Source: Bradyrhizobium ottawaense
GTDB lineage: Bacteria; Pseudomonadota; Alphaproteobacteria; Rhizobiales; Xanthobacteraceae
DNA length: 64,000 nt
Direction of reading: 5' to 3'
Assembly (NCBI RefSeq): GCF_900099825.1
Contig: NZ_LT629693.1
Location: 6,211,001-6,275,000 of the forward strand
Shown here: piece by piece, positions 7,782-58,970 of the stretch
Numbering within the stretch: position 1 is the first letter of the stretch
Layout of the letters: the number at the start of each line of letters is the position of its first letter
Program-made: the position numbers and the translations under genes
Notes under the pieces: generated by a model
The model's input: only the letters and a program-made list of their open reading frames with translations
The model's database searches: none
Told to the model about the DNA's origin: nothing

Positions 7782-9077
7782 TTAGGCGGTCATCAATGCG
7801 GCCCTTGATTTGCGGCGATAGGCCATGAAGCCAATGCCAGCGAAGCCGAAGATAATCATTGCCCATGTTGATGGCTCGGGGACTGCGGTAATGGCTGTCA
7901 TTGTACCTGTAAATGCGCCGTCTCCTGTGAACGTAACTTGGGTGACGAACGCGGTTGAATTGGCGGGATCAAGGCCCAAGCTCGGATCAATTCCCAGAAT
8001 TTCGAACTTGCTGATGCCGCCCTGACCAAAGTTGTACAATGTATCAGCTGCAAGGTCCTGCTTGAATTCGAAAGACGTGCCATTCCATACATAGAGTTCG
8101 TAGGGATGAGACATACCTAAGTTCGGGAGCTCGACGGTCGCGAAGTTTGGATTGCCGACACCAATCGAGAAAATATAACCGAGGGCAGCTGCAGGATCTA
8201 AGTTCACAGACTGACCATGGCTAACGTCAATGTTGAAGCTATAGACCGTTTGTCCGACGGTATTGACCGATGAGACGGGTACCTGCACAGGACCGCTAAA
8301 TTGCGTTACTGCGTTGGGATGAAAATCGAAAAAGCTCTGAGAGCTTGCTCCAGTTGTGGCGTTGTCATTCAGCCGAAAGTCGTCTCGGATGAGAACGCCA
8401 TAATGACCGTTTGGATTGAGTGGTCCAAAATGAGGAAGGTTCGCCGGAATGGTTATACTGGTTTGGCCGCTTGGCAAATCTTGTCTGAAAATTTCTTGCT
8501 TGTTGTTGTTCAGGTCGAAGATGAAGACTTTTGTGTTCTGAGTAAAACCTGTTGGCAGAGCGACAGCGGCCGGCGCATTCCACGTAATTGTCGGTGTCGT
8601 CACTGTCGCTGATGTGCCGCTGATCGCCGCTCCGGTTATGAACGGAGGCGGTGGCAGGTTCGCAATAGCGGCGGTGTTGACGACAAGAGAGTTATAATTC
8701 GGATTGCTGACGGTTAGTTGCCAAGGTCCGAGCAGGTTCGGGTTGTACCTGATCGACGTCTGAAAGAGATTGGGATCCGGCACTGCGTTAGAGTAGGGAA
8801 CATTAAAGGTGGCGCCATTCTGAGTTGCCGTCACGGTTGTCTGTGATGCGAACGTCTGCTCATTTGAGCCTGACTCGAGATGGAAGCGTCCGCCAAACGA
8901 CAGGAACTGCGTAGCTACGGGTTGTCCGAAGGCTACATTCGAGGAATTGTATCCCACGTAAGCAAACGTCCCGGGGAAGCCAGGCGTCAGCGTATTTTGC
9001 ACAATGGTGTCAACAGGAGCAGCTTTGGCTACCGATGGGACCAAAAACAAAGTCGCCAGAAAAATCGCTCTGCGCAT
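7782..9077 (-). CDS. PEPxxWA-CTERM secreted protein 1
   Basis: A 431-residue exported protein of unknown activity. Residues 1-19 are a Sec signal peptide ([19 protein letters not shown]). The middle is beta-rich and low in cysteine, with segments like [18 protein letters not shown] that resemble an adhesin or Ig-like fold. The C-terminus is a complete sorting signal: PEPSTWAM, a hydrophobic helix [13 protein letters not shown] and a basic tail RRKSRAA. In this family an exosortase cleaves at PEP after Sec export; the candidate enzyme is at 58050-58970. A GGAG box lies just upstream of the start. Confidence 0.9.
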
Positions 9078-9665
9078 TTTAAATACTCCGCAAGCGTTGA
9101 AATTTAATATGATAACCCAATTGTGAATAATTGTGTTGACTATGGAAGATATGTCAACTCATTTTTTTTCAACTTGAGAGGTCTCTCGGGGATCGTGGCA
9201 ACATAAAGCCGTTTCCTGACGCCTAGAGTAAGCGAAATTAACTTAGCCGCCTGGCCCTGGGAGGCGACCGCAAGATTTTTCACGATCGACGAGCTATCCC
9301 GCGTTCCATCTGTGCGCCGATGAGAGCCTCCGGGTGACGACCAACAGAGCAAGATGAGTTCGGTTGGGTCGGTGGTTCCAACACGGCGATGGCCAGGAAA
9401 CAACCCATCACCGTCGCTCGAATTGTTGCTTCAATTTCCTTGGCGGGCGTTCGTAAACGGTTGGCCCTCCAACCGATATTCGCCCCGACGTCGTCATCGA
9501 TTGGCCAAACGCTTTAACCGGCGCTCAAGTCGCTAACAAGTTGCCGTAGCCGGCATCCGAATTGGCTTCAGGCTCGGGTTGATTATCGATGAGGATATGG
9601 CAAGCTTGCGCAAGCACAAGGTCGTCATATCAAGTGTTAAAATAAATGCGGCGTGAGGAATTCCA
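9078..9665. other. Long intergenic stretch
   Basis: It contains the promoter side of PEP-CTERM gene 1 and the palindrome at 9135-9158. Short frames exist on both strands but none has a ribosome site together with protein-like composition. Confidence 0.45.
9135..9158. promoter_or_regulatory. Imperfect palindrome upstream of PEP-CTERM gene 1
   Basis: GTTGAC at 9135-9140 and GTCAAC at 9153-9158 form an inverted pair around a 12-bp centre, 58-81 bp upstream of the gene starting at 9077. GTTGAC also resembles a -35 box. It could be an operator or a promoter element; only symmetry supports it. Confidence 0.3.
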
Positions 9666-9872
9666 ATGTCGCGCATGATCTTGGTCCTATGTGTGTTCGC
9701 GATTGTTTGGATAGTGCTCGCAGTTGCAGCGTTTATCCTCGACATCGGTCGCACCGGATATACGATCTCAGATAACCGTAATCTCGCGTCGAAAATTCTC
9801 CGTTCTGATGAATTGCCAATCACTGGGTTAGCTTTCATCATTACCAGCGCTATTTTCTTTTGGTTCGGGTAG
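9666..9872 (+). CDS. Small membrane protein, two predicted TM helices
   Basis: A 68-residue protein. An N-terminal helix (MILVLCVFAIVWIVLAVAAFIL) and a C-terminal one (ITGLAFIITSAIFFWFG) flank a short polar loop with DIGRTGYTISDNRNLASK. The start follows gtgagg at proper spacing. No family was recognised. Topology and codon-like composition argue for a real gene rather than the longer opposite-strand frame covering it. Confidence 0.6.
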   Translation: MSRMILVLCVFAIVWIVLAVAAFILDIGRTGYTISDNRNLASKILRSDELPITGLAFIITSAIFFWFG

Positions 9873-10105
9873 CGCACCTGCGACGCGACTGAGCGGGGCG
9901 ATTGAAAAGCGCGGCGACTTATTTTCAGATGCGTTCTGGTTTTTGCTCGGCGGTACGCTGTCGACGGATCGGCGTGATTCCAGTCACCGCAAGAACCAAA
10001 CGGCCGGGAAGTTTTATAGCCGCACGACAGGTGGCGCGGATCAAATGGGATCGGGTCTGTCTCAAGCGTTTCATGAACCGACATGGCTGGTGCGGTCCTG
10101 AAGAA

Positions 10106-10127
10106 AGAGCCGCCCGATGGCGGCTCT
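10106..10127 (-). terminator. Rho-independent terminator of PEP-CTERM gene 2
   Basis: Nine-bp stem agagccgcc (10106-10114) / ggcggctct (10119-10127), followed on the minus strand by TTTCTT. It lies 22 bp beyond the stop at 10149. Confidence 0.85.
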
Positions 10128-10148
10128 CCCTCAGTCTTACAACGCGGA

Positions 10149-11141
10149 TCAGGCCGACATCAACGCCAGCTTTGATTTACGGCGATAGGTCATGTAGCCA
10201 ACACCAGCGAAGCCGATCAACAGCATGGCCCAGGTCGAGGCTTCGGGCACGGCCTGCGCGATGAACGCATCGGCGATTACGTGATGGGCCGCGGCGGTTG
10301 GGTGAATACCGTCCCAATACTCGTAGTTATTGCAATTGGTGCCAATGGGGGCGGCGCCGCAGGCATCCGTCACATTAGTCAATCCATACGCTGATGGATT
10401 GTTTGCGATCGACGTGCCGAGGTGAAAGATGTCAAAGATCGATACGCGGGTGTCGCCGGCGAGTATATTTGCAAGTGCCAGGTTCATGTCAGCTGCAAGC
10501 AAGGATGCCAACGCTGCTGCTCCCTGTGCTGCGACGGCGGGCGCAAGGCCGAGATTGGGCGTGTCCCAGACAATAATATGCTGAGCCCCGCCGACCTCGA
10601 GGGCGTTTACGATCGAGGCGATGTTGGCTGCAAACGAAAGCGCGGTCGCCTGAATCGTCGCCGTGCCTCCGACGATCGCGCCGAGCGCAGCTCGTGCGTC
10701 GTTGCCGCCGCCCTCGACCACATAGAGCGCAGTAGGCGAAGCCACGTGACCGGTTGAGGCGAGATAGATGCCGGCCTGCGTGATCAGATTGGGGCTTGGG
10801 CCGGGCCCCCCGGTGGTCGCACCGCCGAACGCGAAGTTGGTACCGCCTATGACTGAAGGCTGTAACGGAAGACCGAGCGCGGCGGCGACATCCGAAGCCC
10901 ACACCGGTCCATTGCTGAAATTTGCCGAGGGGGCGTAGGCTTGGCTGGGAATGTAAGTATTACCCGTTATGTTCGGCGCAGACGTGCCGCCCAGAAGCGC
11001 GGCGTTGCCACTGTCTGAAAGACTATCGCCGAACACCACCAATGAACTATAGGGACTAGCCGCGGCCGGCAGGATAGTAATCGCCGTGCCTAGGGCAGCG
11101 GCGAAAGCGCTCGCGCAAATAGCTCTAAAAAAAACTCGCAT
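10149..11141 (-). CDS. PEPxxWA-CTERM GDSL-family esterase/lipase
   Basis: A 330-residue secreted SGNH hydrolase. A signal peptide (about residues 1-28, ending LPAAASP) is followed by block I, VVFGDSLSDSG, with the nucleophile Ser40. The glycine/asparagine blocks follow (GGTNFAFGGA, VEGGGNDARAAL), and WDGIHPTAAAHH supplies the Asp and His of block V. The C-terminus is an exosortase signal, PEASTWAMLLIGFAGVGYMTYRR, with the second Pro of PEP replaced by Ala. It is probably a surface or periplasmic esterase whose anchoring depends on the exosortase. Start at ATG 11141 after GGGAG. Substrate is unknown; EPS acyl groups are one inference. Confidence 0.92.
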   Translation of the reverse strand: MRVFFRAICASAFAAALGTAITILPAAASPYSSLVVFGDSLSDSGNAALLGGTSAPNITGNTYIPSQAYAPSANFSNGPVWASDVAAALGLPLQPSVIGGTNFAFGGATTGGPGPSPNLITQAGIYLASTGHVASPTALYVVEGGGNDARAALGAIVGGTATIQATALSFAANIASIVNALEVGGAQHIIVWDTPNLGLAPAVAAQGAAALASLLAADMNLALANILAGDTRVSIFDIFHLGTSIANNPSAYGLTNVTDACGAAPIGTNCNNYEYWDGIHPTAAAHHVIADAFIAQAVPEASTWAMLLIGFAGVGYMTYRRKSKLALMSA

Positions 11142-11611
11142 ACGCAACTCCCTTCAAAACGGACCCACTTGAGCTGTGGGTACCGTCCGCTTATCCAAAC
11201 CTAACAAGCGCCCGCAGGCAATGGCCATTGCACCGCAATATCTAGTCAGCCTTCCGATCCACGAAAATCAGAATGGCTCACGGTCGCAAAGCGCCAAAGG
11301 ATTCGGTTCCGAAACAACCCAACTAGTCTCGTGTCGGCGGCGTCAGCGACCAAGGCGCCAGCGTTGGGAGGGATGCTTGTTAAATCGCTTAGGGGAGGGG
11401 AAAGACAACCGAATTTTTTCAGCGGATTACGGATGTGGCTCACGACAGCAGGGTCGGCAAAGATGACCCCTGCTTATCATTCAAAAGGATTCCGCTGACG
11501 CGTTATGCACGCCCCATGAGGGGCCCGAAGACATGAGGGCTCTTTGGACGTGATGGGATAGGCGCGTCCGATGCGGGTTTGGCTGAAGGAGTGGACTGGA
11601 TCGCGGACCGC
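11142..11611. other. Intergenic stretch
   Basis: It holds the upstream region of the GDSL gene. No supported gene, hairpin or repeat was found in the remainder. Confidence 0.45.
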
Positions 11612-12244: not shown

Positions 12245-12829
12245 TCAGGCGGCCATCAATGCTGCCCCTGATTTGCGGCGATAGGCCATGAAGCCGACGC
12301 CAGCGAAGCCGAGAAGCAGCATGGCCCACGTCGCGGGTTCGGGGACGGCAGCTACCTGCCACGTGCCGGCCGTGTCTGTGTTCACGTATGTTTCAGCTGA
12401 GTCACAGGTTCCTCTGAGCCCATAGTCCATGGTCGGAAAGCCAGCAGCGTTTCCGATCGTATAGATCAAAGGAGCATCGGCACCATTTCCGTTCAGGTAC
12501 AGAAACCAACTAGTGACCTGCCCCAGTTCGTTTAGTCTCAAATAATCAACCCAGCCGTCCAATGTCACGCCAGGCGTGTTGGACGACACGGATTCAAGTA
12601 ATTCGGTCGTCTTTGAATGGACGCTAAGCGAAAATGCGGTGATATCCGAAGAATAAAGGTAGTCGCCGGCAGCGCAGGGGCCGACGCAGTTTAACTCAGC
12701 CGTCGCAGTCACATAGCTTTCATTACCAAAGCTCGGAGTGCCGGTATAAGTGTAAGTCGCGGCGGAGGCATGTGTTGCCGATGCGCCGAACGCCAGCCCG
12801 ATAAACAACGACACTGATTTAATATTCAT
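12245..12829 (-). CDS. PEPxxWA-CTERM secreted protein 3
   Basis: A 194-residue exported protein. The signal peptide spans about residues 1-23 ([16 protein letters not shown]). The short beta-rich body has one possible disulfide pair in [13 protein letters not shown] and another Cys in [11 protein letters not shown]. The sorting signal is [23 protein letters not shown] plus KSGAALMAA. No enzymatic motif was recognised. Nucleotide identity with the 3' ends of the genes at 7782 and 14261 is very high over the sorting signal. Confidence 0.88.
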
Positions 12830-14260: not shown

Positions 14261-14905
14261 TCAGGCGGCCATCAATGCTGGCTTCGCCCTCCGATGATAG
14301 GTCATGAAGCCCATGCCAGCGAAGCCGAGGATTATCATGGCCCACGTAGACGGCTCGGGGACGGCCGTCACTAGCGTCGCCGATATTCCCGTCGTGTCGT
14401 AGTAGAACGGCCCACTTCCGCGCGGGTTGGGCACGTTGAAACTCACTTCAAAAAGCAACTGATCTCCAGCTGTCATTGATAGAGTGTTGCTAGCGAAAGA
14501 GGGTCCGGCGCCGAACCCGCCCACGTTGCCCAAAAACAATGAGACGCCATCAAGCAAGATTTGCACATTGGTATTCGTCGGACCGACAAAATCGAGACCG
14601 CCAAAACTTGCATTCAACGCATAAACGGCTGTGATCGGAGCAATAAAAGAATAATAGGCGATTTCGCCGTTTTGTCCGGGATGAAACGAGGCTTGCCCAG
14701 GAGCCCATTGAACGGTTCCCGCAGTCAACGTGGAGTTCGAAGTGTTTATCGCTACGCTGGGTGTCGTGTAGGTAGCCGTCTGCGTCAAGCTCGGATCGGT
14801 CCAATACTCCAGCGTGCCCGAGGTATTGAAGGTTGAAAATTGGGTCTGCGGGCCGGTCGGGGAGCCATTCGCGATATAGGTCATCGACCGTCGCGGCCAC
14901 GCCAT
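14261..14905 (-). pseudogene. PEPxxWA-CTERM protein 5, 5'-truncated
   Basis: The frame encodes about 210 residues ending in a good sorting signal ([32 protein letters not shown]). The body has beta-rich segments such as GQNGEIAYYSFIAPITAVYA and QILLDGVSLFLG. Unlike its relatives it has no signal peptide: the first residues are MAWPRRSMTYIANGSP and an in-frame stop lies just upstream. The 5' end coincides with the 3' end of the small zinc-ribbon gene 14881-15099. Deletion of the original promoter and signal sequence is the simplest reading, so the product is probably not exported. Confidence 0.7.
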
Positions 14906-47379: not shown

Positions 47380-47440
47380 CGCGGAGTTTCCTCAGCACTT
47401 GCCAAACGCATATCGAGTTAGCTTAAACAGGGTTGAAAAG

Positions 47441-49825
47441 ATGAAGCCGTGGATTAAATTCTTCCGAGCGGATCTCGCGTTTGCGCTTGGGCTGGTGACA
47501 CTTGTAGCCGGCTGCGGCTCGCCCGATCAAAACGCGCAGAAGTACTATGGGAGGGGTATGGCTCTCATTGAAAAGAAAGACGACCTGGAAGCACGCAAAG
47601 AGCTCCTGCAGGCTGTAAAATACAAGAGTGACAAGGTCGAAGTGTGGAAAGCGCTGGCCGGCATTGATGAGCGCACAAAAGCCCAATCGCTTTTCCTGGA
47701 TTTGCGACGGATCGTCGAGCTCGACCCCAAAGATTTGGACGCAAGGCTGAAGCTTGCCCGTATCATGATTGGCGGCGGCGCTGCGGAAGCCGCGCTTAAG
47801 GTCCTTGAGGCTGCGAACGAAGACAAGCCCAACGCTGAGCTACATGCACTGCGTGCGGTTGTTTTTCTGAAGGATAAAGACGCTGCCAGCGCGGTACGAG
47901 AGGCTCAGCGGGCCTTTGAGATAGACCCAGCCAATGTGGACGCCGTCAGCTTGCTCGCATCAAAGAAGTTGGCGGATGGTGACGCTGACGGCGCTTTAAA
48001 GCTTTTGGATTCAATAACCATTGAGCCCAAGGACGAAGCTCGAATTTCGCTGCAGAAGATGCAGGCCTACGCCAAAAAAGGCGACTTGGCGAAAGCTGAA
48101 AGCCTCCTCCGAAAAGTAATAGCTCTCAATCCAAAAGAGCCAGCCTACCGGACGCAGCTCATTCAGCTTCTGATTGCGCAGCGGCGATTTGACGAGGCTG
48201 AGAAGGAGTTCAGGGGAAGGGTTTCGGCTGATCCGACGAACACAAAACTGGGACTTGATCTGGTTCGTTTTCTCAATCTAGCGAAAGGCCCCGATGTTGC
48301 CCGAACCGAGCTTGAAAATCGCATCAAGGCCGGTGGAGACATATTCGAATACCAGGTCGCTTTGTCGGAACTCAATATTCGGCAAAACAAGATCGACGAG
48401 GCTACGGAGCTGTTGAAGACGCTTGCTAACGGTGCGGCGACGCCTGACCGTAAGTCGATTGCTCAGCTCAAGCTCGCTGAACTCTACATGAGTAAAGCAA
48501 ACGTTGCAGCGGCCGAGCCGCTCATAGCGGAAGTGATCAAGCAAGATCGCAGAAATGCGGGTGCTCTGAGGCTTCGCGCTGCCATTAAGATTGACAAGTC
48601 TGATGTCGATGGCGCGGTGTCCGATCTGCGCGAAGCGCTCAATGATCAACCGAAATCCCCTGAACTTCTTATGCTGCTCGCCGTAGCCTATGAGCGCGGC
48701 GGGAAAAACGAGTTGGCTGATCGGCAGTATGCGGACGCATTGAAGTCGTCCAACTCGAATCCCGACGTTGCTCTTCGATATGTTGGTTTCTTGCAGCGCC
48801 GGGGCGACGCCTCGCATGCGGAAGACGTCTTGACGGATGTGTCTGGTCGTTACCCCAACAATCTTCAAGTTCTGTCTTCGTTGGCGCAGCTGAGGTTGTC
48901 TCGCCAGAACTGGACGGGTGCGCTGACGGTTGCTGATACGATTGGAAAGTTGAGCGACGGCCGCGCGCTGTCGGACCAAATCCGCGCATCAGCTCTGGCC
49001 GGACAGAATAAAATCGATGAGAGCATTGTGGCATTGGAAGATGCCCATCAGGCCGCGCCGGATGCCGTTCAACCAGTTGTCTCGCTGGTGTCCGCATATG
49101 TCAAACAGGGCAAGCCTGACAAAGCAGTCACGCTCTTGCAGGATATGAACAATAAATTTCCGACTAACTCGCAGATCCTTGTGATGCTGGGGCAGGCCAA
49201 GCTCACGCAAAACAAGGACCAAGACGCGATTCAAAATTTCAAGGACGCGATCACAAAGCAACCGAAGGACCCCGTGGGCTATGCGGCGTTGTCGGACCTG
49301 TATATTCGTCAGAAAAACTATGATGCTGCTGACAACGTTTTGCAGGCGGGGCTGAAGGAGCTTCCGACCAATGTGAACTTGAAACTCTCTTCGGCAGGAA
49401 TCCAAATTCAGAAGGGCAATCACGACGCCGCGATTTCGCAGTATGAGTCTATTTTGAAGGACCAGCCGAACTCAGCCGTTGCGGTCAATAACCTGGTGAG
49501 CCTGTTGCTGGACTATCGCTCTGACAAAGAAAGCCTGGACCGGGCTTTTTCGTTGGCAGATTTGCTGAAGAACGCGACTGTCCCGCAGTTTCAGGATACG
49601 TGGGGTTGGGCTCAATATAGAAAAGGTGATTACAAAGGCGCGATTGGGACGCTGGAAGCTGCCGCGGCCAAACTGCCTGATCTCGCGGCGCTCCATTATC
49701 ATCTCGGCATGAGTTACAAGGCTGCGGGCGAGCCCGAAAAGGCTGCAGAGCAACTTAAGACTGCTTTGAGCCTCGAGCCGGATGGAACTGCTCTGAAGGA
49801 AAGCATCAGTGCAGCAATGAAATAG
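47441..49825 (+). CDS. prsT: PrsT-like TPR lipoprotein of the PEP-CTERM/exosortase system
   Basis: A 794-residue protein made of about 20 tetratricopeptide repeats. A lipobox, VTLVAGCGS, gives a predicted lipoprotein. Clear repeats include FLQRRGDASHAEDVLTDVSG and PVGYAALSDLYIRQKNYDAA. Length and layout match the PEP-CTERM system TPR protein PrsT, which accompanies exosortase/EPS loci. ATG 47441 was chosen because the lipoprotein signal begins there; an upstream start at 47399 adds 14 residues without purpose. It ends 3 bp before the convergent barrel gene. It may organise the export complex in the periplasm. Confidence 0.88.
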   Translation: MKPWIKFFRADLAFALGLVTLVAGCGSPDQNAQKYYGRGMALIEKKDDLEARKELLQAVKYKSDKVEVWKALAGIDERTKAQSLFLDLRRIVELDPKDLDARLKLARIMIGGGAAEAALKVLEAANEDKPNAELHALRAVVFLKDKDAASAVREAQRAFEIDPANVDAVSLLASKKLADGDADGALKLLDSITIEPKDEARISLQKMQAYAKKGDLAKAESLLRKVIALNPKEPAYRTQLIQLLIAQRRFDEAEKEFRGRVSADPTNTKLGLDLVRFLNLAKGPDVARTELENRIKAGGDIFEYQVALSELNIRQNKIDEATELLKTLANGAATPDRKSIAQLKLAELYMSKANVAAAEPLIAEVIKQDRRNAGALRLRAAIKIDKSDVDGAVSDLREALNDQPKSPELLMLLAVAYERGGKNELADRQYADALKSSNSNPDVALRYVGFLQRRGDASHAEDVLTDVSGRYPNNLQVLSSLAQLRLSRQNWTGALTVADTIGKLSDGRALSDQIRASALAGQNKIDESIVALEDAHQAAPDAVQPVVSLVSAYVKQGKPDKAVTLLQDMNNKFPTNSQILVMLGQAKLTQNKDQDAIQNFKDAITKQPKDPVGYAALSDLYIRQKNYDAADNVLQAGLKELPTNVNLKLSSAGIQIQKGNHDAAISQYESILKDQPNSAVAVNNLVSLLLDYRSDKESLDRAFSLADLLKNATVPQFQDTWGWAQYRKGDYKGAIGTLEAAAAKLPDLAALHYHLGMSYKAAGEPEKAAEQLKTALSLEPDGTALKESISAAMK

Positions 49826-49828
49826 CTG

Positions 49829-51064
49829 CTAATTTCCGCGCGGTAGGATCGTAAAGCTATTTGAAACCACGACCATGATGCTGTTGGAGTCTGCAGGACC
49901 TATTCCGGAAACAGTGGGAAAACCGGTGGTGGGATCGATGATCGTCGTGCCTCCCGTGCTCGCGAACCGATGCTGATAACGGTAGGTAAGCGAAGCAGTC
50001 CAATCGCGAATGAAATTATAACTATAGGTCATCGACGCCGATGCATAATCAGTCGTAGTCGTTCCGATCTGTCTGCTGACGCTTGCTGACATGGATAGCG
50101 ACGATTGCGCGTTTATTGTTTGGCTAAGAGTTGCGTCGACCGTATCTCGTTTGAAAAGCGAGCCTACTACGCTTGGCCCAATCGATTGGCTCGCAGTGAC
50201 GGCCAAGGTAGTATTTTTGAGAACCTTATACGTGAGGACGGCGTCGCCAATCCAGTCTGTAACGGCAGCGTTAGAGGCCCCAGAGCCGCCGATCAAGGGT
50301 GACCCTGTTACGGCGCCCTGCGTGGTGAGATAAGCCGCACCTGCGTTAATCCGAAACGAAAGCACGGCGGACAGTGTCGCATCCACGCCGACCTGATTGC
50401 GATAGATCTGAACATGGGTTTTAGATGCATTATCATAATCTAGCAGTTCCGCTTCGGACGATGCGGTCAGGGTTGTGATGGAGCTTACATTGTGCCTCCA
50501 GCTTCCGCGGGCCAACGTGTCGGTGAAGGGTAAGCCGCCGCTGGAAGGTTCATAAGAGGTGCGGGTAGAAGTGGCGAACAAGCTGATGGTATCGCGTGCC
50601 GTGACCGATCGGTCGATCCCGCCGGCGACCCTTAGGGTATCAATATATCCGGTGGCCCGGGTTGCTACGCCGAAATCATTCAGCAAAGCGAGGGAAGTGC
50701 TTTGTTGTCTCCATGCACTCTCTACAAACTCTTTATCGAATCTACCCTTTTCCGTTGCCTCATAGCGACCCCTGAAGCCATAATTCAACGATTCTGAAGC
50801 GACGCCTTCTACACCGGGTCCCCAGTATTTTCGGTAGCTTCCGTCGGCGTCAAAATCAAACTTCGATGTCGGGGTTCGCGCCTCCGCGTTTGTCGTAATC
50901 GTGGAATAAGACCCGACGGAACCTGCGGGTGAAGATTTCAGGAACTGGTTGCTATTGAGCTCGACCGTTTCGCTTTCGGTCGCCTTGATTGACCAGTCAA
51001 ACGCCGACGCTGCTGATGGCGCGAGGCCAAAGCATACCGAGACTGCTATAGCAGTTCTCTTCAC
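49829..51064 (-). CDS. Outer-membrane beta-barrel protein, EpsL-like
   Basis: A 411-residue protein with a signal peptide (MKRTAIAVSVCFGLAPSAAS, then A) and a body of alternating amphipathic strands throughout (TASSEAELLDYDNASKTHVQ, SLSMSASVSRQIGTTTTDYA, RDWTASLTYRYQHRF). It probably forms a beta-barrel in the outer membrane as the EpsL-type component seen in XrtB/EPS loci. It follows the export-protein gene on the same strand with a 31-bp gap, so both belong to one transcript with the ATPase at 51789. Family assignment is by context and topology. Confidence 0.8.
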   Translation of the reverse strand: MKRTAIAVSVCFGLAPSAASAFDWSIKATESETVELNSNQFLKSSPAGSVGSYSTITTNAEARTPTSKFDFDADGSYRKYWGPGVEGVASESLNYGFRGRYEATEKGRFDKEFVESAWRQQSTSLALLNDFGVATRATGYIDTLRVAGGIDRSVTARDTISLFATSTRTSYEPSSGGLPFTDTLARGSWRHNVSSITTLTASSEAELLDYDNASKTHVQIYRNQVGVDATLSAVLSFRINAGAAYLTTQGAVTGSPLIGGSGASNAAVTDWIGDAVLTYKVLKNTTLAVTASQSIGPSVVGSLFKRDTVDATLSQTINAQSSLSMSASVSRQIGTTTTDYASASMTYSYNFIRDWTASLTYRYQHRFASTGGTTIIDPTTGFPTVSGIGPADSNSIMVVVSNSFTILPRGN

Positions 51065-51095: not shown

Positions 51096-51680
51096 CTAGT
51101 CGAACAAGCCCCGCTCTGGAACCATGATGACGTCGCCGGCGCGCAATCTGATGTTGCCTTCGAGGCCATCGCCTTTTTCGTATGCACGATAGTCGAACAT
51201 GAAGATGGTCTCGTCCCCGCCCGGGGCGCGGCGCCTGACCTGGATTTTGCGCTTTGCCGCAAACGGGCCGATGCCGCCGGCCAGCGCAATTGCCTGCATC
51301 AGGGTGGTAGGCTGCCGAACCACATATGACCCGGGCCTTATGACCTCACCGGTGATGAAGATCTTTGGCTTGAGATCCTCCTCTGGAATGTCCTTGGGCG
51401 AGTTGGCGACCGCAACGGTGACATCCAGGTTGTCGTCCTTGTAGTTGCCCTTCAGCTTATCTTTCAGAATGTTCTCTAGCGCCTGCGGGGTCAGACCGCG
51501 CGCGCGAATATGGCCCGCTAGGGGAAAAGCAATCTCGCCGCTGGGATCGACAACTACGTTACGGTCGAGCTTGGAATCCTGCAGGACCGAGATGCTCAAA
51601 TTATCGCCCGACTTCAGGGTTTGGGCATTAGCTCCGGACATGCAGATGCACAGGCAAAATAAAATAAACAGGATCCGCAT
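51096..51680 (-). CDS. Polysaccharide export protein, Wza/EpsE type
   Basis: A 194-residue periplasmic/outer-membrane protein. The signal peptide is MRILFILFCLCICMSGANA. A Poly_export (PES) domain follows (LKSGDNLSISVLQDSKLDRN, VVVDPSGEIAFPLAGHIRAR), then one SLBB domain (KIFITGEVIRPGSYVVRQPT, TLMQAIALAGGIGPFAAKRK) and the end GDVIMVPERGLF. No lipobox Cys is evident at the cleavage site. It is shorter than Wza and fits the EpsE-type export protein of PEP-CTERM loci, which bridges the barrel and the chain-length protein. Confidence 0.92.
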   Translation of the reverse strand: MRILFILFCLCICMSGANAQTLKSGDNLSISVLQDSKLDRNVVVDPSGEIAFPLAGHIRARGLTPQALENILKDKLKGNYKDDNLDVTVAVANSPKDIPEEDLKPKIFITGEVIRPGSYVVRQPTTLMQAIALAGGIGPFAAKRKIQVRRRAPGGDETIFMFDYRAYEKGDGLEGNIRLRAGDVIMVPERGLFD

Positions 51681-51788: not shown

Positions 51789-52625
51789 TTAAGGAACTCG
51801 GGCGACCTGCTTAACTGGAAAAATACTGTACTGTTGCTTGTCTGCAATTACATCTCTAACTATCTGATCGGAAATGACTTTCTGGTCGTTAGCAAAGCCA
51901 TAGACGAGGGCAGTGTCGCACAGAACGTTAATCATGCGTGGAATCCCGCCGCTGGCCGACGCAATCAGCGCGCAGGCTTCCTTGGTAAACAGCGGGCGAG
52001 GTGACCCAACAGCCTTCAGGCGGAAGGCGATGTAGTTGGCGACCTCTCGTTCATCCAGCGGCCGAAGATGAAAGTCGGACGATATCCGTTGCGCGAACTG
52101 ATGCAGCTTGGGGGCAAGAAGCAGGTCCCGCAGCTGCGGCTGTCCGACGAGAATGAGTTGCAGGATTTGGAATTTATCGGCGTTGATGTTGGAAATCATC
52201 CGCAAATGTTCGAGTGCCTCGGGCTCGAGGTTTTGGGCTTCGTCGATAATTAGAATCGTCCTGCGCCCATTGGCGTACTGGCCATACAAATAGTCTTGTA
52301 ACTGCTTGAAAAGACGTGGGTAATCACCTTCAAATGATTGACCTAGAGACATCAGAATCCATTGCAGCAGCTCCTGGCGTCCCTGCGGGGAATTTGAGAT
52401 CAGTCCGACCGTAATCTGTGGGCTGATCTTTTTGAGCAAATGCCGGACGAGCGTTGTTTTTCCCGACCCGATTTCGCCCGTGATAACGGTGAACCCCGCA
52501 TTATTCATGACGCCGAATTCCAGCATCGTGAACGCCATCGAGTGCATTTTCCCCCAGTAGATCAAATCAGGGTCTGGCAGGATCGAAAATGGCTTCTCCC
52601 GCAGCTGATAAAATGCCTCGTACAT
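51789..52625 (-). CDS. ExeA/GspA-type AAA ATPase of the exosortase/EPS locus
   Basis: A 278-residue ATPase. It begins MYEAFYQLREKPFSILPDPD, the usual opening of ExeA-like proteins. Walker A is GEIGSGKT (residues 50-57), Walker B ILIIDEA (124-130), and a sensor motif follows in LQLILVGQPQLRDLLL. Length matches the XrtA/PEP-CTERM-associated ATPase family. It is divergent from the chain-length gene at 52883 and heads the minus-strand transcript of export genes. Its role in the system is unknown; energising assembly is a guess. Confidence 0.92.
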   Translation of the reverse strand: MYEAFYQLREKPFSILPDPDLIYWGKMHSMAFTMLEFGVMNNAGFTVITGEIGSGKTTLVRHLLKKISPQITVGLISNSPQGRQELLQWILMSLGQSFEGDYPRLFKQLQDYLYGQYANGRRTILIIDEAQNLEPEALEHLRMISNINADKFQILQLILVGQPQLRDLLLAPKLHQFAQRISSDFHLRPLDEREVANYIAFRLKAVGSPRPLFTKEACALIASASGGIPRMINVLCDTALVYGFANDQKVISDQIVRDVIADKQQYSIFPVKQVARVP

Positions 52626-52882: not shown

Positions 52883-54238
52883 GTGGTCAACATGCTGCAA
52901 AAAGTAGACTTTGAAGATAGTTTTGAGGTGCACGAGGATCGCAGCCACCTTCTGCGGCCAGCTTTCTATTGGCAATTGTTCAAACGGCGTTGGCCCTATT
53001 TCGTTATTCCCTTCGTCACAATTTCTGCCGCCGGCGTTGCCGCGGCCCTGTTATGGCCTCCGACCTACTTGTCCGAAGGCAAGATCCTGGTTCAGTCGCA
53101 GCAGATCCCCTCAGAGCTGGTGCGTCCAACGGTGACCAACGCCGCGCAAGAGCGCATTCAGGTCATCCAGCAAAGGACGATGACCAGGGATAATTTGATC
53201 GCGATAGCCGACAAGTATCAGTTGTTTCCCGATAAGCGAACGTTGATGTCGGTGACCGAGCTTGTCGAGCTTTTCAAGAATCAGATCAAAATTGCGCCAG
53301 TCGAGCTTCAGTTGGACTTCAAACAGCGCACGCGGGCTGCACTCGAAAATCCCACGATCGTTTTTTCTGTTGGATTTGAGTACGAGGATGCTGCTGTTGC
53401 GGCGCGTGTCGCAAACGAGTTGATGACGCGCATTTTAAACGAGGATTTGCGAGACCGTACCAGTCGGGCGACCGACACCACCAAGTTTCTGTCGCGTGAG
53501 GTGCAAAAGCTTCAGGCTGACAACGCGGCCCTGGACGCTCGGATTGCTCAACTGCGGCTATCTCAGGGTAAGCCAGCTTCGAGTGGCGGTACCGACCAGC
53601 CAACAACAATGCTCGGTCAGCTCAAGGCGGAGCTTGTACAAAAGGGAGCGCTTTATTCGGAAAAGCATCCCCTGATCCAATCGTTGAAAAGACAAATCGA
53701 AGCAATGGAGAAGTCGGTCGCGCCTCCCGTGGTCAGTGCCGATCCCAACGCTTCAGCCAGCATTGAAGCACTTTTGGCGCAGCAAGAAGCTTTGCAGAAG
53801 AACCTCGAGGTGGCCACGACCAAACTTGCCGCGGCGCGCGTTGGCGAAAATCTCGAAAGGGATCAGCAGTCCGAAAAGCTCGAAATTATCGAGCAGCCGA
53901 CAGTTCCTCAGGAACCGATTAAACCCAAGCGACCCAAGGTAGCAGCCATTGCAATCCTGCTTGCTCTCGCTGCGGGGGCTGGTTTGACTTTTGTGGCTGA
54001 AATTGCGGACAAGGGAATTCGACGAAGCAGCGATATTTTCAGCATCGTTGACAGTAAGCTTGTCGTCTCAATCCCCTACATCATCACGTCAGCCGAGGTA
54101 CGTCGGCGCAAGCGGCGCATGCTGCTTTTCGTTCTTGTATCGGTGATTTTGTTCGGCTGCGTGCTGGCTGGCGCGTATTTTTTCCTGCCGCCACTTGATC
54201 TGATGATCGCCAAGGCTCGGGTTGGTCTGTTTCGGTAA
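52883..54238 (+). CDS. Chain-length determinant, Wzz/EpsF type
   Basis: A 451-residue inner-membrane protein. The first TM is near residues 37-56 (FVIPFVTISAAGVAAALLWP), followed by the Wzz motif PPTYLSEGKILVQSQQIPSE. A long periplasmic coiled coil spans about 190-335 (REVQKLQADNAALDARIAQL, LLAQQEALQKNLEVATTKLA). The conserved Pro-rich element IEQPTVPQEPIKPKRP precedes a second TM (VAAIAILLALAAGAGLTFVA), and a third TM lies near the end. It controls polymer length together with the kinase encoded 16 bp downstream. Start at GTG 52883 after GGAG. Confidence 0.92.
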   Translation: MVNMLQKVDFEDSFEVHEDRSHLLRPAFYWQLFKRRWPYFVIPFVTISAAGVAAALLWPPTYLSEGKILVQSQQIPSELVRPTVTNAAQERIQVIQQRTMTRDNLIAIADKYQLFPDKRTLMSVTELVELFKNQIKIAPVELQLDFKQRTRAALENPTIVFSVGFEYEDAAVAARVANELMTRILNEDLRDRTSRATDTTKFLSREVQKLQADNAALDARIAQLRLSQGKPASSGGTDQPTTMLGQLKAELVQKGALYSEKHPLIQSLKRQIEAMEKSVAPPVVSADPNASASIEALLAQQEALQKNLEVATTKLAAARVGENLERDQQSEKLEIIEQPTVPQEPIKPKRPKVAAIAILLALAAGAGLTFVAEIADKGIRRSSDIFSIVDSKLVVSIPYIITSAEVRRRKRRMLLFVLVSVILFGCVLAGAYFFLPPLDLMIAKARVGLFR

Positions 54239-54254: not shown

Positions 54255-55067
54255 GTGGATTCGATCAAACAGGCCGTCGAACTTGCACGTGCGGCGGAAA
54301 GCGCGCCGCGGAACGACACCGGATTAGCGGGTGCTTTCGGAATTTCGCGCCAAACAACTTCCGATACGCAAATTAGGGATGTCCGGCTCAACGCGGCTCA
54401 TTTGCAGGCCGCACGCATCATCGCCTATGGTACTTCAAGCGAGCACGGTCGCTACTACGACATGCTGCGGACCCAGGTCCTGCAGGAGATGGACAAGAAG
54501 AGCTGGCAATTTCTAGCGGTGACTTCTCCGACCGCAGGGTGCGGAAAAACGGTAACCGCCTGTAACCTTGCGATCAGCATTGCGCGCCTGCCGGGCCGGT
54601 CGGTGTTGCTGGTGGATCTCGACCTTCGTAAGCCCATGGTGGCAAACTATCTGGGACTTGGCGCAACGGACGGGGTTCTCAGTGTTCTGGAAGGCCGATC
54701 GACCCTTTCGTCGGCCATGCTGAAGGCCAGTATTGGCCCTGCTAGTTTTTTGGTACTCCCGGGTTCTGAGTCTTCCCCTGGTTCTTCGGAATGGATGGCT
54801 TCCCAGACCATGGCAAATGTCCTGCAGACCATCCAAAGGGATTTCAGGTCGTGTGTTGTGATATTCGACTTGCCACCGATGCTGCTCGGCGATGATGTAA
54901 TCTCCATTCTGCCTCGAATGGATGCGGCTTTATTGGTCGCGGGAGTTGGCAGCACGTCCGTTTCCGATATCAAAGAGTGCCAGAAGCATCTGCAGCGAAC
55001 CCCTGTCGTCCGTGTCGTTGTCAACAAGGCCACGGAATTGGCAGGCTCCTACTATGGCTACTACTGA
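54255..55067 (+). CDS. BY-kinase-like / CpsD-CapB ATPase
   Basis: A 270-residue cytoplasmic P-loop protein. Walker A is SPTAGCGKT (residues 91-99), the Walker A' motif VLLVDLDLRKP (117-127) and Walker B VVIFDLPPML. The C-terminus YYGYY is a short tyrosine cluster of the kind autophosphorylated in bacterial tyrosine kinases. It has no membrane segment, so it should pair with the cytoplasmic ends of the chain-length protein at 52883. GGGAG precedes its GTG start. Phosphorylation itself is inferred from family knowledge. Confidence 0.9.
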   Translation: MDSIKQAVELARAAESAPRNDTGLAGAFGISRQTTSDTQIRDVRLNAAHLQAARIIAYGTSSEHGRYYDMLRTQVLQEMDKKSWQFLAVTSPTAGCGKTVTACNLAISIARLPGRSVLLVDLDLRKPMVANYLGLGATDGVLSVLEGRSTLSSAMLKASIGPASFLVLPGSESSPGSSEWMASQTMANVLQTIQRDFRSCVVIFDLPPMLLGDDVISILPRMDAALLVAGVGSTSVSDIKECQKHLQRTPVVRVVVNKATELAGSYYGYY

Positions 55068-55073
55068 TTTCGG

Positions 55074-55736
55074 CTAGAGCGCAAAACCGGCCGGCAGGAA
55101 GGCGGCAATTTCTGCAGCCGGAACAAAATATTTTGCAATATCGCGGGTTTCAGTCTTTCCGGTGCCAGGCCGGTTGACCGATTGCGAAATCTTGCGGCTC
55201 ATAATCCCGAGCAAACAACGTTGTTGCGCATCGAACACCCCGGAGCCTGAGTTTCCCGTGCGCGCCACGTCAGCGATTGCGGTGCTGAATCGCCGAGCGC
55301 CAACGGGAATGCGGTCGGGAGGAATGACGTAGGAGCGGACTGCGCCTTCGGGAATAACCGTAACGATCGGCTCTCCTGGCCATGGAGCCACATTACAGAG
55401 AGTAGTTCGGCGTAACCGCAAGCGCATCGGAAGCAGCGCCTCGTCGATCGCGAGCAACGTCAGATCGGTGCCTTCAAAACTTCCCTCCTTGACGACGCGG
55501 GTCGGGTATTCTTGACCAGCTATGACGACCTTTGGTCGTGTCATCCAGGCCCTGCCGGCGACGTGGGCAGCTGTAATGAACATGCCCTTTCCAAGAAAGA
55601 TGCCGTATCCGGGCCAGGGCTGAAGCGGCGTGCGATGAACATTAACCGCATAGGCGCGCAGTGAATCGTCCGCGTTATCTGTCCATCCAGGGGAGGCTAA
55701 GAAAACGAGGAAGATGGCGCCAAATATGAGCCGCAT
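55074..55736 (-). CDS. Secreted trypsin-like serine protease
   Basis: A 220-residue S1-fold protein. The signal peptide is MRLIFGAIFLVFLASPGWTD. The catalytic triad can be read as His58 (FITAAHVAG), Asp91 (EGTDLTLLAI) and Ser163 (RTGNSGSGVFD). GVFDAQQRCLLGIMSRK follows the active site as in HtrA/glutamyl-endopeptidase-like enzymes. There is no PDZ domain. ATG 55736 was chosen since it begins the signal peptide. It is convergent with the kinase gene (6 bp apart) and lies 130 bp downstream of epsI on the same strand. A role in processing exported or sorted proteins is inference. Confidence 0.87.
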   Translation of the reverse strand: MRLIFGAIFLVFLASPGWTDNADDSLRAYAVNVHRTPLQPWPGYGIFLGKGMFITAAHVAGRAWMTRPKVVIAGQEYPTRVVKEGSFEGTDLTLLAIDEALLPMRLRLRRTTLCNVAPWPGEPIVTVIPEGAVRSYVIPPDRIPVGARRFSTAIADVARTGNSGSGVFDAQQRCLLGIMSRKISQSVNRPGTGKTETRDIAKYFVPAAEIAAFLPAGFAL

Positions 55737-55866
55737 GGCGCGAGCCACTCCGAGTTTACGATGGGTTAGGATCGCTGAGTAGCTTGATCTACACAAGCAA
55801 ATCCGTTCAACCGCCACAATTGAATTACCCTTAGATCAGCGTGCAACGAGAGACTGAAAGGACAGC

Positions 55867-56586
55867 TCAGCCGGGTGTACCTATGAAGAACTTCAGTTCC
55901 TCAGGCGGAATGGCTGCGAGCAAATCACGGATAAACTTATCTTGCAGCGCGAATGAGGCTTCTGGCGAAAGACCTATCGTTGAGACCCTGACGAGAGCAC
56001 CGTCCGGTATCATGCCATGCAGGCCATATTTCAGTCTGATGATCTGGCTTTCAACAGGGCCGGTCGCGATATCATTGCCAACCCGCATCCAGTAACTAAC
56101 AGGCTCAAGCCTTGTTTCTCGCTGTGTCGTCAAGCGTGTCAGTTTGATCGGTTCCGCGCCGTCCCGATACGATATCTGCGACTTATATTTGTCGGAGACC
56201 CGAAAGCCATTGGCGGTATAGCAAATCTCCGGACGATGGGACTTTAACCGGTAATTTTGAACGGGCCCATAGGCTACCAGAAGCATCACTATGTTGCCGC
56301 GACCGTCAGAATAGCCCCGCGCCACCTCCTGGCTGTAGATTTTGGCCGAAAATCGATCCGGCTGTACGTACCCTTCGGGTTCTGTCGGGGTTACAGGGGA
56401 AATACTTGGCACCAGTGTCCAGGTCCCGAAATTCTGGGGGATGATTTTTTGCAGGTCCATCGATGCCGCTGTTCTTGCCATCAGCTCCCGCGGTGTCAGA
56501 ACCTGCGCCAGCACTGCAGCCGCAATCATGGCAACGCAGGCCAAAACAACTTGAATTCGGTTTAATTTCATTAATTTACCCGACAT
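55867..56586 (-). CDS. epsI: Exosortase-associated EpsI family protein
   Basis: A 239-residue protein with one N-terminal TM (VVLACVAMIAAAVLAQVLTP) and a periplasmic domain. LLVAYGPVQNYRLKSHRPEI, then CYTANGFRV, contains the conserved HRPExCY motif of the EpsI family. Elsewhere EpsI is often fused to or next to an exosortase. Here it is a separate gene, about 1.5 kb from the exosortase and on the opposite strand. The exact role is not known; it is required for EPS in some systems. Confidence 0.92.
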   Translation of the reverse strand: MSGKLMKLNRIQVVLACVAMIAAAVLAQVLTPRELMARTAASMDLQKIIPQNFGTWTLVPSISPVTPTEPEGYVQPDRFSAKIYSQEVARGYSDGRGNIVMLLVAYGPVQNYRLKSHRPEICYTANGFRVSDKYKSQISYRDGAEPIKLTRLTTQRETRLEPVSYWMRVGNDIATGPVESQIIRLKYGLHGMIPDGALVRVSTIGLSPEASFALQDKFIRDLLAAIPPEELKFFIGTPG

Positions 56587-56832: not shown

Positions 56833-57723
56833 ATGAAGTACCCTAACTTGGCTCTGACGAGCTTCTGTCGTACGGCGGTGGCCTTGGGACTTTGCGGAAT
56901 CTTGGTCGCGGGTTGCGGCAAGAAGAGCGGGGAACAGGCAGCTATTTCGAATAGTCAGGTTGTCGCGCATGTCGGGGACCAGGTCATTACCGCTCAAGAA
57001 TTTGAAAACGAGCTGCGCCTCCTGAATATTCCGCCTGACAAACAGAAAGAGCCCGAGGTCGTCAAGCGCGTTTTAAACGAGATGGTCACGCGTAAGTATC
57101 TGCTGGCACAGGCCCTCGGCGCGAAGCTTGACCGCGAGCCCAACGTCCTCTTGGATATTCTTCGCTCTCGCGAGCAGGTGTTGGCGAATGCGCTCCTCTC
57201 ACGCACCGTAGCCAAGAAGCTTTCGGCGATCAGCAAGGCGGACATTGACAAATACATCGCGGACAATCCGCTCAAGTTTGCCGGCAGGAAACTCATGACG
57301 GTTGACCAGATTGCTTTTCCGCTTGGCGCCAATGCCCAGTCGATTATCGAGTCGGCCAAGGACGCAAATTCGCTGGAGGACGTCGATCAAAAGTTGACAG
57401 CGATGGGAATTCCGCACGGTCGATCGACCGGAACGCTCAATAGCAGTGAAATACCGGACGAACTCATCAGCAGTATGCGCGCCAAAAAACCCGACGACGT
57501 GTTCTTCGTTCGCTCCGGCCAGAATGGCGTATTTTTGAAAGTGAAGAGCGAAGAAGTGCGGCCGTTGGAAGGTGAAGCTGCAGTAAACACGGCCCGTCAA
57601 TTGATGAGAAACGATTTCCTCAAAGCTGAAGCCGGTATGGTCTCTGTTTCGGCAAATCTTGAGGCCAAATACGAGGGCGTGTACTCGAAGATTATGACTT
57701 CCGACGAGGGCCAGAAAAATTGA
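56833..57723 (+). CDS. EpsD-like peptidyl-prolyl isomerase lipoprotein
   Basis: A 296-residue periplasmic lipoprotein. The lipobox is GILVAGCGK. A SurA/PrsA-like chaperone part follows (VVAHVGDQVITAQEFENELR, VVKRVLNEMVTRKYLLAQAL), then a parvulin-like domain (FAGRKLMTVDQIAFPLGANA, ELISSMRAKKPDDVFFVRSG, NGVFLKVKSEEVRPLEGEAA). The layout corresponds to the EpsD-family PPIase of PEP-CTERM/EPS loci. It is followed after 44 bp by the small membrane gene and then the exosortase, likely one operon. Confidence 0.88.
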   Translation: MKYPNLALTSFCRTAVALGLCGILVAGCGKKSGEQAAISNSQVVAHVGDQVITAQEFENELRLLNIPPDKQKEPEVVKRVLNEMVTRKYLLAQALGAKLDREPNVLLDILRSREQVLANALLSRTVAKKLSAISKADIDKYIADNPLKFAGRKLMTVDQIAFPLGANAQSIIESAKDANSLEDVDQKLTAMGIPHGRSTGTLNSSEIPDELISSMRAKKPDDVFFVRSGQNGVFLKVKSEEVRPLEGEAAVNTARQLMRNDFLKAEAGMVSVSANLEAKYEGVYSKIMTSDEGQKN

Positions 57724-57767
57724 GACTTGGACCTCGCATTTAATCCATATGACCAAATGGTTTGACA

Positions 57768-57998
57768 ATGGCTACATTCTTTGACGTCGTTACAGTAAGT
57801 TGCTTTGCAGGTTTGGTGCTGGCGTTCTTTCAGTTTACCGACCGAGAAATGCGAACATTGCTGCATTTCCTTTTTGCGGGAATTGTCTTTGCGGTCGCGA
57901 ACCAGGTTGGAAACGCTGGCGTAACTATCTTGGCGCTGATTTTGATTTTGGCAGGAGCGGGTTATGCTTTTCTTGTGGTCCGAAATAGTCGCGCATAG
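57768..57998 (+). CDS. Small exosortase accessory membrane protein (XrtV-accessory-like)
   Basis: A 76-residue protein with three hydrophobic segments (FFDVVTVSCFAGLVLAFFQF, LLHFLFAGIVFAVANQVGNA, VTILALILILAGAGYAFLVV). Its size, position directly upstream of the exosortase and the N-terminal FDxVTV pattern match, from memory, the short accessory protein of XrtV-type sorting systems in alphaproteobacteria. Start at ATG 57768; a TTG precedes it. No catalytic residue is evident; it may stabilise the exosortase. Confidence 0.75.
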   Translation: MATFFDVVTVSCFAGLVLAFFQFTDREMRTLLHFLFAGIVFAVANQVGNAGVTILALILILAGAGYAFLVVRNSRA

Positions 57999-58049
57999 TT
58001 GTTGGCCCGTGTTTCTTGCTACCAGATGATCTTGCTGGCGTAGGGTGAA

Positions 58050-58970
58050 ATGGCATACTCTGAGACGGTGAAAGCGGAAAAGCTGTTGTCGTTACGAGGT
58101 CTTCTTTGGCCGGCTCTGTTGGCCGCTTCGTGCGTTGCCGCATATGTCCCCACGATTCGGGGACTAATCGATGGACCATGGCAGACTGAGCAGGAGGGCC
58201 ACGGTCCACTGATCATTGCAGCTTCGCTTTGGTTGGTTTGGCAATCGCGCGAACAGCTGAGAACGGTAAAGTTGTCGCCCGCGCCAATCGTTGGTTGGGT
58301 GTGCCTCGCGCTTGGCCTCTTTTTGATGTTTTTGGCTAGAACCCAGGACATTCTACCGGTCGAGGCTTTCTCAATCATCCCGGTGATCACGGGATGCGTT
58401 TTGCTTTCGGCAGGCTGGCCAATGCTTCGCCTACTCGTATTTCCGATCGGATTTCTCATCTTTGCGGTTCCGGTGCCCGATTGGATGATCGACGCTGCAA
58501 CGGTGCCATTAAAGGTTTTCATTTCGGATTCGGTTACACGGATCCTCTATGCTGCAGGCTTTCCGATCGCCCAGAATGGGGTCATGATCATGATCGGCTC
58601 GTATCAGCTCCTGGTAAAGGACGCTTGCTCGGGGATGAATTCGATCTTCGCCCTGTCTGCGATTGGAGTCTTTTATGCCTATGCTTTTCGTTGGCACGAA
58701 CGAGTTCGCAGTCTGATTTTGTTGATCTCGATTATCCCCATTACGATTCTGGCAAACTTTATCCGAGTTATTGCACTGGTTTTGATCGCGTATTACGGGG
58801 GCCCCGATCTGCTTGAGGGCGTCGTGCATGATCTGACGGGGATAGGCCTCTTTATCGTTGCCGTTTTGCTGTTGTTCTTGTTTGATGCGTTACTTGGTCT
58901 TTGCAGGAAGTTCTTGTTACCAACTAAGCGTCAGGATCGTTCGTTGGCTGCGTCCGACCCGGCGGGCTAA
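58050..58970 (+). CDS. Exosortase (XrtV/XrtB-type transpeptidase)
   Basis: A 306-residue polytopic membrane protein with about eight helices. The three invariant catalytic positions are present: Cys193 in DACSGMNSIF, Arg239 in NFIRVIALVL and His260 in VVHDLTGIGLF. The order matches the exosortase family. It is expected to cleave PEP-CTERM proteins at the C-terminal signal after Sec export and hand them to an unknown acceptor. The neighbouring EpsI, EpsD-like and accessory genes suggest the B or V subtype; subtype is inference. Seven PEPxxWA-CTERM genes lie between 7.8 and 27.2 kb. Confidence 0.94.
   Translation: MAYSETVKAEKLLSLRGLLWPALLAASCVAAYVPTIRGLIDGPWQTEQEGHGPLIIAASLWLVWQSREQLRTVKLSPAPIVGWVCLALGLFLMFLARTQDILPVEAFSIIPVITGCVLLSAGWPMLRLLVFPIGFLIFAVPVPDWMIDAATVPLKVFISDSVTRILYAAGFPIAQNGVMIMIGSYQLLVKDACSGMNSIFALSAIGVFYAYAFRWHERVRSLILLISIIPITILANFIRVIALVLIAYYGGPDLLEGVVHDLTGIGLFIVAVLLLFLFDALLGLCRKFLLPTKRQDRSLAASDPAG

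Follow-up and report, generated by a model that had tools for sequence, protein, structure and literature searches.

A clustered exosortase V/PEPxxWA-CTERM system with a linked serine protease in Bradyrhizobium ottawaense

A 64,000-nucleotide stretch of the Bradyrhizobium ottawaense chromosome (positions 6,211,001-6,275,000 of a one-contig genome of 8,339,115 bases, or 8.34 Mb; hereafter the window) carries an exosortase gene, xrtV, and seven genes whose products end in a PEPxxWA-CTERM sorting tag. We are confident, on the strength of sequence comparison, that these genes belong to a complete XrtV/PEPxxWA-CTERM surface-display system that forms part of an exopolysaccharide locus containing GDP-fucose genes. 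The linkage between substrates and exosortase put forward in the original prediction is right and stronger than was stated, and the novelty of that reading is modest. New beyond it are a serine protease not yet catalogued in such systems and a conserved, mostly Ala-ended tail behind the tag.

Results

The exosortase and its immediate neighbors

The genes at the core of the locus are the following (window positions; scores against curated cut-offs where models exist).

55074..55736, minus strand, predicted secreted trypsin-like (S1C-type) serine protease without a PDZ match; Trypsin_2; the open reading frame (ORF) runs to 55817
55867..56586, minus strand, EpsI, V-type; NF045608, 241.1 bits over 228
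56833..57723, plus strand, EpsD-like peptidyl-prolyl isomerase; TIGR02925, 105.8 bits, just below 108.9
57762..57998, plus strand, XrtV sorting system accessory protein, 78 residues; NF045607, 79.2 bits over 35 for 57753-57998
58050..58970, plus strand, exosortase V (XrtV); NF035943, 320.9 bits over 313

The exosortase has exactly the Cys193, Arg239 and His260 predicted for it, which we take to be the catalytic residues. Among 16 XrtV sequences, Cys193 is invariant and the Arg and His are at least 90% conserved. The protein does not reach the cut-off of the XrtA model (163.7 bits, below 208), and no solved structure matched it at E<0.1. A search of the genome with TIGR02602 gave one real exosortase match (160 bits) along with six short matches of 11 bits; XrtV is thus the single exosortase found, and no better-matching one competes for the substrates. 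Of the accessory genes named in advance, EpsI is confirmed outright and the EpsD-like gene is also confirmed with its score just short of the cut-off. The accessory ORF of 78 residues, between the EpsD-like gene and xrtV, had not been named.

XrtV is patchily distributed. It was found at E<=1e-30 in 37 of 265 genomes of the genus, with 35 strong matches (289-324 bits; 24 of them over the curated cut-off) and two weak ones (119-126 bits), and in 3 of 149 genomes of a family sample. A plasmid search returned 35 records matching XrtV, all at less than 60% identity. For comparison of loci, up to 10 kb was fetched on each side of xrtV in 27 relatives (the named loci), of which 17 bear the name Bradyrhizobium; Nitrobacter Nb-311A is closest, at 79%. 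One genome of the genus (G189:C1:5325001-5345000, locus L157) carries a weak exosortase match of greater length, with PrsT-, ATPase-, kinase- and chain-length-like genes next to it, and only one weak PEPxxWA match.

Tagged substrates in the window

The seven substrates lie, as predicted, on the minus strand.

7782..9077, minus strand, PEPxxWA substrate, 431 residues, conserved core substrate; NF035944, 36.1 bits over 35
10149..11147, minus strand, PEAxxWA substrate, GDSL esterase-like, 332 residues; tag 29.0 bits, below cut-off
12245..12829, minus strand, PEPxxWA substrate; NF035944, 40.7 bits
13158..13931, minus strand, PEVxxWA substrate; NF035944, 22.9 bits, below cut-off; TIGR02595, 17.4 over 16 in the genome search
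14261..14905, minus strand, PEPxxWA substrate without visible signal peptide; NF035944, 33.2 bits as protein, 37.1 in the genome search
19610..20374, minus strand, PESxxWA substrate; NF035944, 34.4 bits as protein, 37.6 in the genome search
26704..27234, minus strand, PEPxxWA substrate; NF035944, 36.5 bits

In all of them the C-terminus consists of PE[P/A/V/S][S/A]TWAM followed by a hydrophobic stretch and a cluster of basic residues. The RRK ending claimed for the whole set stands for six of them, which read YRRK, and fails for 14261, which reads YHRR. The PEPxxWA-CTERM model NF035944 matches all seven at E<=6e-5, and its 35-bit cut-off is passed by three as whole proteins and by five in a six-frame search. 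By inspection, a signal peptide is present in six; since none is visible in 14261, the 5' end of this ORF may be damaged. The variant tags at 10149 (PEA), 13158 (PEV) and 19610 (PES) are borne out. They had been offered as a special test of exosortase tolerance, for which they are uninformative, as a residue other than proline is common at the third tag position: 12 of 27 in this genome, and 14 of 67, 11 of 47 and 21 of 120 elsewhere.

Clustering of substrates around xrtV

Across the genome, NF035944 gave 29 matches at E<=0.01, 18 of them over the cut-off, all at 5.951-6.310 Mb (this and the other NF035944 counts for the genome rest on the best 150 of 177 candidates scored). With TIGR02595, for which all 134 candidates were scored, 27 of 27 matches over the cut-off fall in the same arc. 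The 29 matches thus span 359 kb, or 4.3% of the chromosome, and 26 lie within 100 kb of xrtV. Three of them are truncated ORFs (6194746, 6302760 and 6309931). The clustering first proposed from the window is therefore real and goes well beyond chance, while the seven genes on which it was based are a part of the set: 22 more lie outside the window, every one in the same arc.

Co-occurrence points the same way. PEPxxWA matches were found in 17 of 17 complete or near-complete (1 to 4 contigs) relatives with strong XrtV, the window's own genome not counted, at 2 to 24 each. The 11 genomes of the genus examined that lack XrtV gave none, and outside the genus two genomes with XrtV yielded 7 and 23. 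With XrtV as the sole exosortase found, this assigns the substrates to XrtV, as had been proposed. In the 17 relatives, 135 of 253 matches lie within 100 kb of xrtV, where about 6 would be expected under even scatter. The smallest arc holding all matches covers 7.4% to 70.7% of those genomes (from rounded genome sizes), against 4.3% here. Clustering near xrtV is common in the genus, and the present genome is the extreme; none of the 17 is as consolidated.

A conserved machine with changing cargo

The machine is syntenic. Within the fetched stretches, XrtV was found in all 27 named loci, the protease in 24, EpsI in 22 and EpsD in 21, and the order protease-EpsI-EpsD-XrtV is kept in 20 of 20 loci (L040-L059). 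In 17 of these 20, kinase and chain-length genes precede the block, and in the remaining three the fetched sequence reaches less than 6 kb upstream; in some, gmd or fcl is inserted within it.

The cargo behaves differently. A search of the stretches fetched from the 27 named loci recovered none of the seven ectodomains of the window. The own ectodomains were also compared with 47 substrates taken by pattern from the xrtV clusters of four other genomes, where the model lists 56: 11 of 27 matched at E<=1e-5, and the one clear ortholog was 7782, with counterparts of 84, 79 and 69% in three of the four. Co-inheritance of a surface-protein/polysaccharide module, as originally suggested, thus holds for the exopolysaccharide/XrtV machine and does not hold for the substrates, whose ectodomains turn over. 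In the same vein, the available part of Haft 2006 (PMC1569441) treats the PEP-CTERM tag as a module carried by proteins that are mostly unrelated and change fast, and mentions a Desulfovibrio plasmid that carries the exosortase and four of five substrates.

The tag itself retains a trace of descent. Nine substrates at 6208-6238 kb, namely all seven window genes and a further two immediately to the left, share silent sites in the tag module at 0.547, against 0.364 (standard deviation, sd, 0.040) under a codon-usage null whose highest value in 300 redraws was 0.470. Because these modules exceed the null, tag capture on an older time scale appears likely. Concerted evolution of the tag within genomes found no support: silent-site identity within minus between genomes was 0.007, with 99 of 500 permutations as large, and the nearest module came from the same genome in 22 of 74 cases, where 16.9 were expected.

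The densest part of the arc is an array of eleven same-direction PEPxxWA genes at 6284772-6294325 (locus L073), which starts 9.8 kb right of the window. Its gaps measure 6-651 bases, its ectodomains are mostly unrelated, and the second proline is absent in 8 of 11. A terminator-like hairpin of GCCGCC type follows several of its genes; 19 sites of this kind were counted in the stretch, where shuffles lead one to expect 13.6 (sd 3.5).

The linked serine protease

The gene at 55074 encodes a protein with a signal-peptide-like N-terminus (by inspection, with the start taken from a 220-residue database form) followed by a trypsin-like domain. We aligned 35 sequences, 28 from the 120 listed homologs (own included) and 7 of the 24 from the named loci. 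All match Trypsin_2 at E<=0.01, and His58, Asp91 and Ser163 (220-residue form) and two cysteines are invariant. The window protein itself scores 23.1, short of the Pfam gathering cut-off of 27.6. No solved structure matched at E<=0.01; against HtrA1 structures the profile gave a weak alignment (E 0.02) in which the His and Asp regions line up. Compared with HtrA and other S1C proteases, the window protein shares the Trypsin_2 match and these two regions, and differs in its low score, the lack of a PDZ match and its linkage to xrtV.

The protease is tied to XrtV in the genus and near relatives. Of the 265 genomes searched in the genus, 39 carry it: 35 of 35 with strong XrtV and 4 of 230 others (G177, G195, G299 and G336). 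The two genes lie 2.9-3.2 kb apart (low ends of the matches) in 34 of the 35 genomes and 5.8 kb apart in one. In one genome (G378) the protease match has one in-frame stop. Among the named loci, the protease was not found in three (L062, L064 and L066). Among the papers listed in a literature search and judged by title or start of abstract, none describes a serine protease or trypsin partner of an exosortase.

The tail behind the tag

Tails were counted in 27 own substrates; two of the truncated ORFs were dropped and the third, 6194746, was kept. Between 6 and 17 residues follow the 24-residue NF035944 tag, 8 or 9 of them in 22 of 27. Measured from the end of the TIGR02595 match, the tail is 6-8 residues long in six window proteins and 13 in the seventh, 14261; for the proteins of that model taken together, the available part of Haft 2006 (PMC1569441) gives a median of three.

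Ala stands at the very end of 23 of the 27 own substrates, of 42 of 67 tails from the named loci and of 34 of the 47 from four genomes. The same holds for homologs of single substrates, at 32 of 39 for 7782 and 91 of 120 for the GDSL protein; the tag is present on all of the best 120 of 2401 GDSL homologs, and the second proline is absent in 21 of these. As background, 32 of 221 ORFs from 17 stretches of the own genome, some perhaps spurious, end in Ala. Pooled, 212 of 288 distinct tails do so. The share is 64-82% in each class of total length from 29 to 35 residues, and 0 of 12 at 36 residues and more. Relatedness through the tag means that these tail counts are not independent of one another.

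The codon for the terminal Ala is GCC in 34 of 57 and GCA in 2 of 57 tails from five genomes, unlike the even Ala codon use in the ectodomains. Two transfer-messenger RNA (tmRNA) genes are present in the genome, and the tags they encode end in VAQAA and VRLAA. The higher-scoring gene, at 5.62 Mb, encodes the tag ANDNYAPVAQAA; the second, at G000:C1:3182429-3182804 (locus L108) and close to a tRNA-Gly gene, encodes ANDNVALNEVRLAA. The tmRNA-tag ends resemble substrate tails such as ALRLA and ALMAA, a likeness that is suggestive only. A search across the class for other tag tails found them in 2 of 190 genomes, the own included, which is too few to use, and the two tails of the other genome are short or different.

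Discussion

In the scheme that we infer for cleavage, acceptor, surface location and the part of the protease, signal peptides would take the substrates across the inner membrane, where the C-terminal tag helix would stall them. XrtV would then cut at the PE-x-x-x-W end of the helix through Cys193, Arg239 and His260 and hand the protein on, the acceptor probably being a lipid or polysaccharide carrier; EpsI and the 78-residue accessory protein would help. The polysaccharide that the proteins finally join would be delivered by the flippase and export genes of the locus. While the machine is a conserved syntenic block, its substrates are fast-changing, mostly unrelated ectodomains that share just the tag and gather beside it. 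For the linked protease, the likeliest targets are substrates or by-products in the periplasm. A lipid acceptor has been proposed for the archaeosortase ArtA in a model whose authors, in the available part of the paper (PMC7157517), call it speculative.

Among the closest known systems is the XrtV system of plasmid p2 of Novosphingobium sp. ES2-1, which also has exosortase V, EpsI, the accessory protein, Wzz-like and tyrosine kinase genes and a PEPxxWA substrate nearby. Its XrtV is 36% identical over 75% of the length, the gene order differs, and the serine protease has no tblastn match in 28.5 kb around xrtV. Two tagged proteins are annotated in that stretch, in a table incomplete by design, against 29 matches in the B. 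ottawaense genome. The XrtA/PEP-CTERM/EpsH system, as covered in the available part of Haft 2006 (PMC1569441), likewise has PrsT-like tetratricopeptide repeat (TPR), export, ATPase, chain-length and kinase genes and a modular tag on proteins that are mostly unrelated and change fast. The present system departs from it in an XrtA score below cut-off, in its longer tail and in having no consistent RpoN-type promoter: upstream of 26 substrates, a simple consensus scan for RpoN (sigma-54) promoters gave best sites with 2-4 mismatches of 11 and no common place.

Several observations weigh against this reading of the locus. Most of the machine genes score below model cut-offs, and these cut-offs were built for XrtA systems. 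The protease is also present in four genomes that have no strong XrtV. Two of these, G177 and G195, show it next to gmd, fcl and the metallophosphatase gene, with xrtV absent from the 20 kb fetched, so its role may lie with the polysaccharide rather than with sorting. In addition, genomes of one genus are related, so the co-occurrence counts are not independent and overstate the number of events. That the protease is a component of exopolysaccharide export which stands next to XrtV incidentally has a real chance of being correct, in our view somewhat less than even. Its presence in 35 of 35 strong-XrtV genomes and 4 of 230 others argues against such a role, as do four distant loci (L060, L061, L063 and L065) where the protease is the sole other machine gene found among those tested, bar one Gmd match of 30%. 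As for the remaining two exceptions, the G336 protease is a 42-46% relative, and no other locus gene lies in the 9 kb of contig fetched around that of G299.

Common descent of the tag could account for the Ala-ended tail with no function attached, and this explanation falls only a little short of even chances. It draws on the silent-site sharing of the nine neighboring modules, which are related by descent, and on the lack of a terminal Ala in all 12 longer tails. The even share of terminal Ala from one length class to the next, set against the background of 32 of 221, suggests instead that the end itself is selected. A bolder proposal is that a dedicated secreted S1C protease, inherited with xrtV in the Nitrobacteraceae, would finish or police exosortase products in the periplasm, while the conserved cytosolic (A-L-x-)A tail, with its likeness to the tmRNA-tag ends, would mark the cut-off stub or the uncut precursor for destruction in the cytosol. 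We regard this as rather improbable; if true, sorting, trimming and clean-up would form one coupled pathway.

For the clustering of the substrates, tandem duplication of one gene is a poor candidate. The array of eleven genes in one direction would fit it, as would three related full-length pairs at E<1e-6, two of which involve DUF642 or choice-of-anchor C proteins. However, when all pairs of the 29 own substrates were compared outside the tag, just seven matched at E<=0.01, two of these by way of truncated ORFs with the tag left on. The terminator-like hairpins after several array genes also tell against duplication, although shuffled sequence yields many such sites too. The tag modules of the array show no silent-site excess (0.363 against 0.368).

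Arrival of machine and substrates together on a recently acquired genomic island is better placed, and still unlikely. The guanine plus cytosine (GC) content is 0.50-0.63, mostly 0.53-0.58, over about 6.13-6.315 Mb in 5-kb steps, compared with 0.605-0.652 in 11 control stretches of 20 kb. Transposases of the IS66, IS110 and IS3 families lie at window positions 974-2503, 2785-3840 and 37742-38542, and the patchy occurrence of XrtV in genus and family would be expected of an island. Yet low GC also marks the xrtV locus of most relatives (0.53-0.585 in 19 of the 20 loci L040-L059), the ectodomains are mostly not shared with other genomes, and one substrate, at 5.951 Mb, sits in an otherwise higher-GC stretch. 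No tRNA gene was found in 474 kb, in a search repeated with a positive control, integrase and border repeats not being searched for. A genome search for nifH gave nothing over the cut-off, just two matches of 22-25 bits, so this is not a nitrogen-fixing symbiosis island (nod genes were not searched).

To our knowledge, the attachment target of exosortases and the helpers they need are still largely open. Combining a single exosortase, a tightly co-occurring protease and a substrate set detected entirely within one arc, the XrtV system of B. ottawaense offers a compact setting in which to ask about acceptor and helpers. There is also a gain for annotation, as the protease has no NCBIfam model (none matched at E<=0.1) and the 24-residue tag model ends short of the conserved tail. 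Among the papers searched, none uses the term PEPxxWA-CTERM.

Further genes of the locus and minor observations

The polysaccharide genes around the core are listed below, with the number of named loci in which each was found where this was counted.

33463..34836, plus strand, Wzx-type flippase (MOP family); NF007773, 77.9 bits, below 273
46192..47379, plus strand, WecG/TagA/CpsF glycosyltransferase; TIGR00696, 82.1 over 69
47399..49825, plus strand, PrsT-like TPR protein; TIGR02917, 260.1, below 312.2; 13 of 27 loci, in most at the edge of the fetched stretch
49829..51064, minus strand, outer-membrane-like protein; weak TIGR03016, 26.2, below 90.85; 16 of 27 loci
51096..51680, minus strand, polysaccharide export protein; TIGR03027, 90.9, below 180; 17 of 27 loci
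51789..52625, minus strand, PEP-CTERM-associated ATPase; TIGR03015, 279, below 324.5; 16 of 27 loci
52883..54238, plus strand, chain-length determinant; TIGR03007, 111.6, below 278.85; 17 of 27 loci
54255..55067, plus strand, tyrosine autokinase; TIGR03018, 128.1, below 230.65; 17 of 27 loci
59137..60225, plus strand, GDP-mannose 4,6-dehydratase (Gmd); TIGR01472, 593 over 415
60143..61162, plus strand, GDP-L-fucose synthase (Fcl); NF047922, 503.6 over 500
62245..62970, plus strand, metallophosphatase-like gene; ApaH-like matches below cut-off; 16 of 27 loci

An AT-rich element, ATTTAAT or ATTAAAT, occurs within 300 bases upstream of the first start codon in 13 of 26 own substrates. It is found before 5 of 71 other genes of the low-GC region with a gap of at least 150 bases and before 9 of 53 AT-rich others; the named loci gave 23 of 57 against 37 of 184. 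The element is a lead only, since the data that suggested it are also those in which it was counted, and part of the difference comes from base composition.

At window positions 41946-44123, on the minus strand, an ORF of 725 residues has halves that match two oxidoreductase groups, as if the two had been fused.

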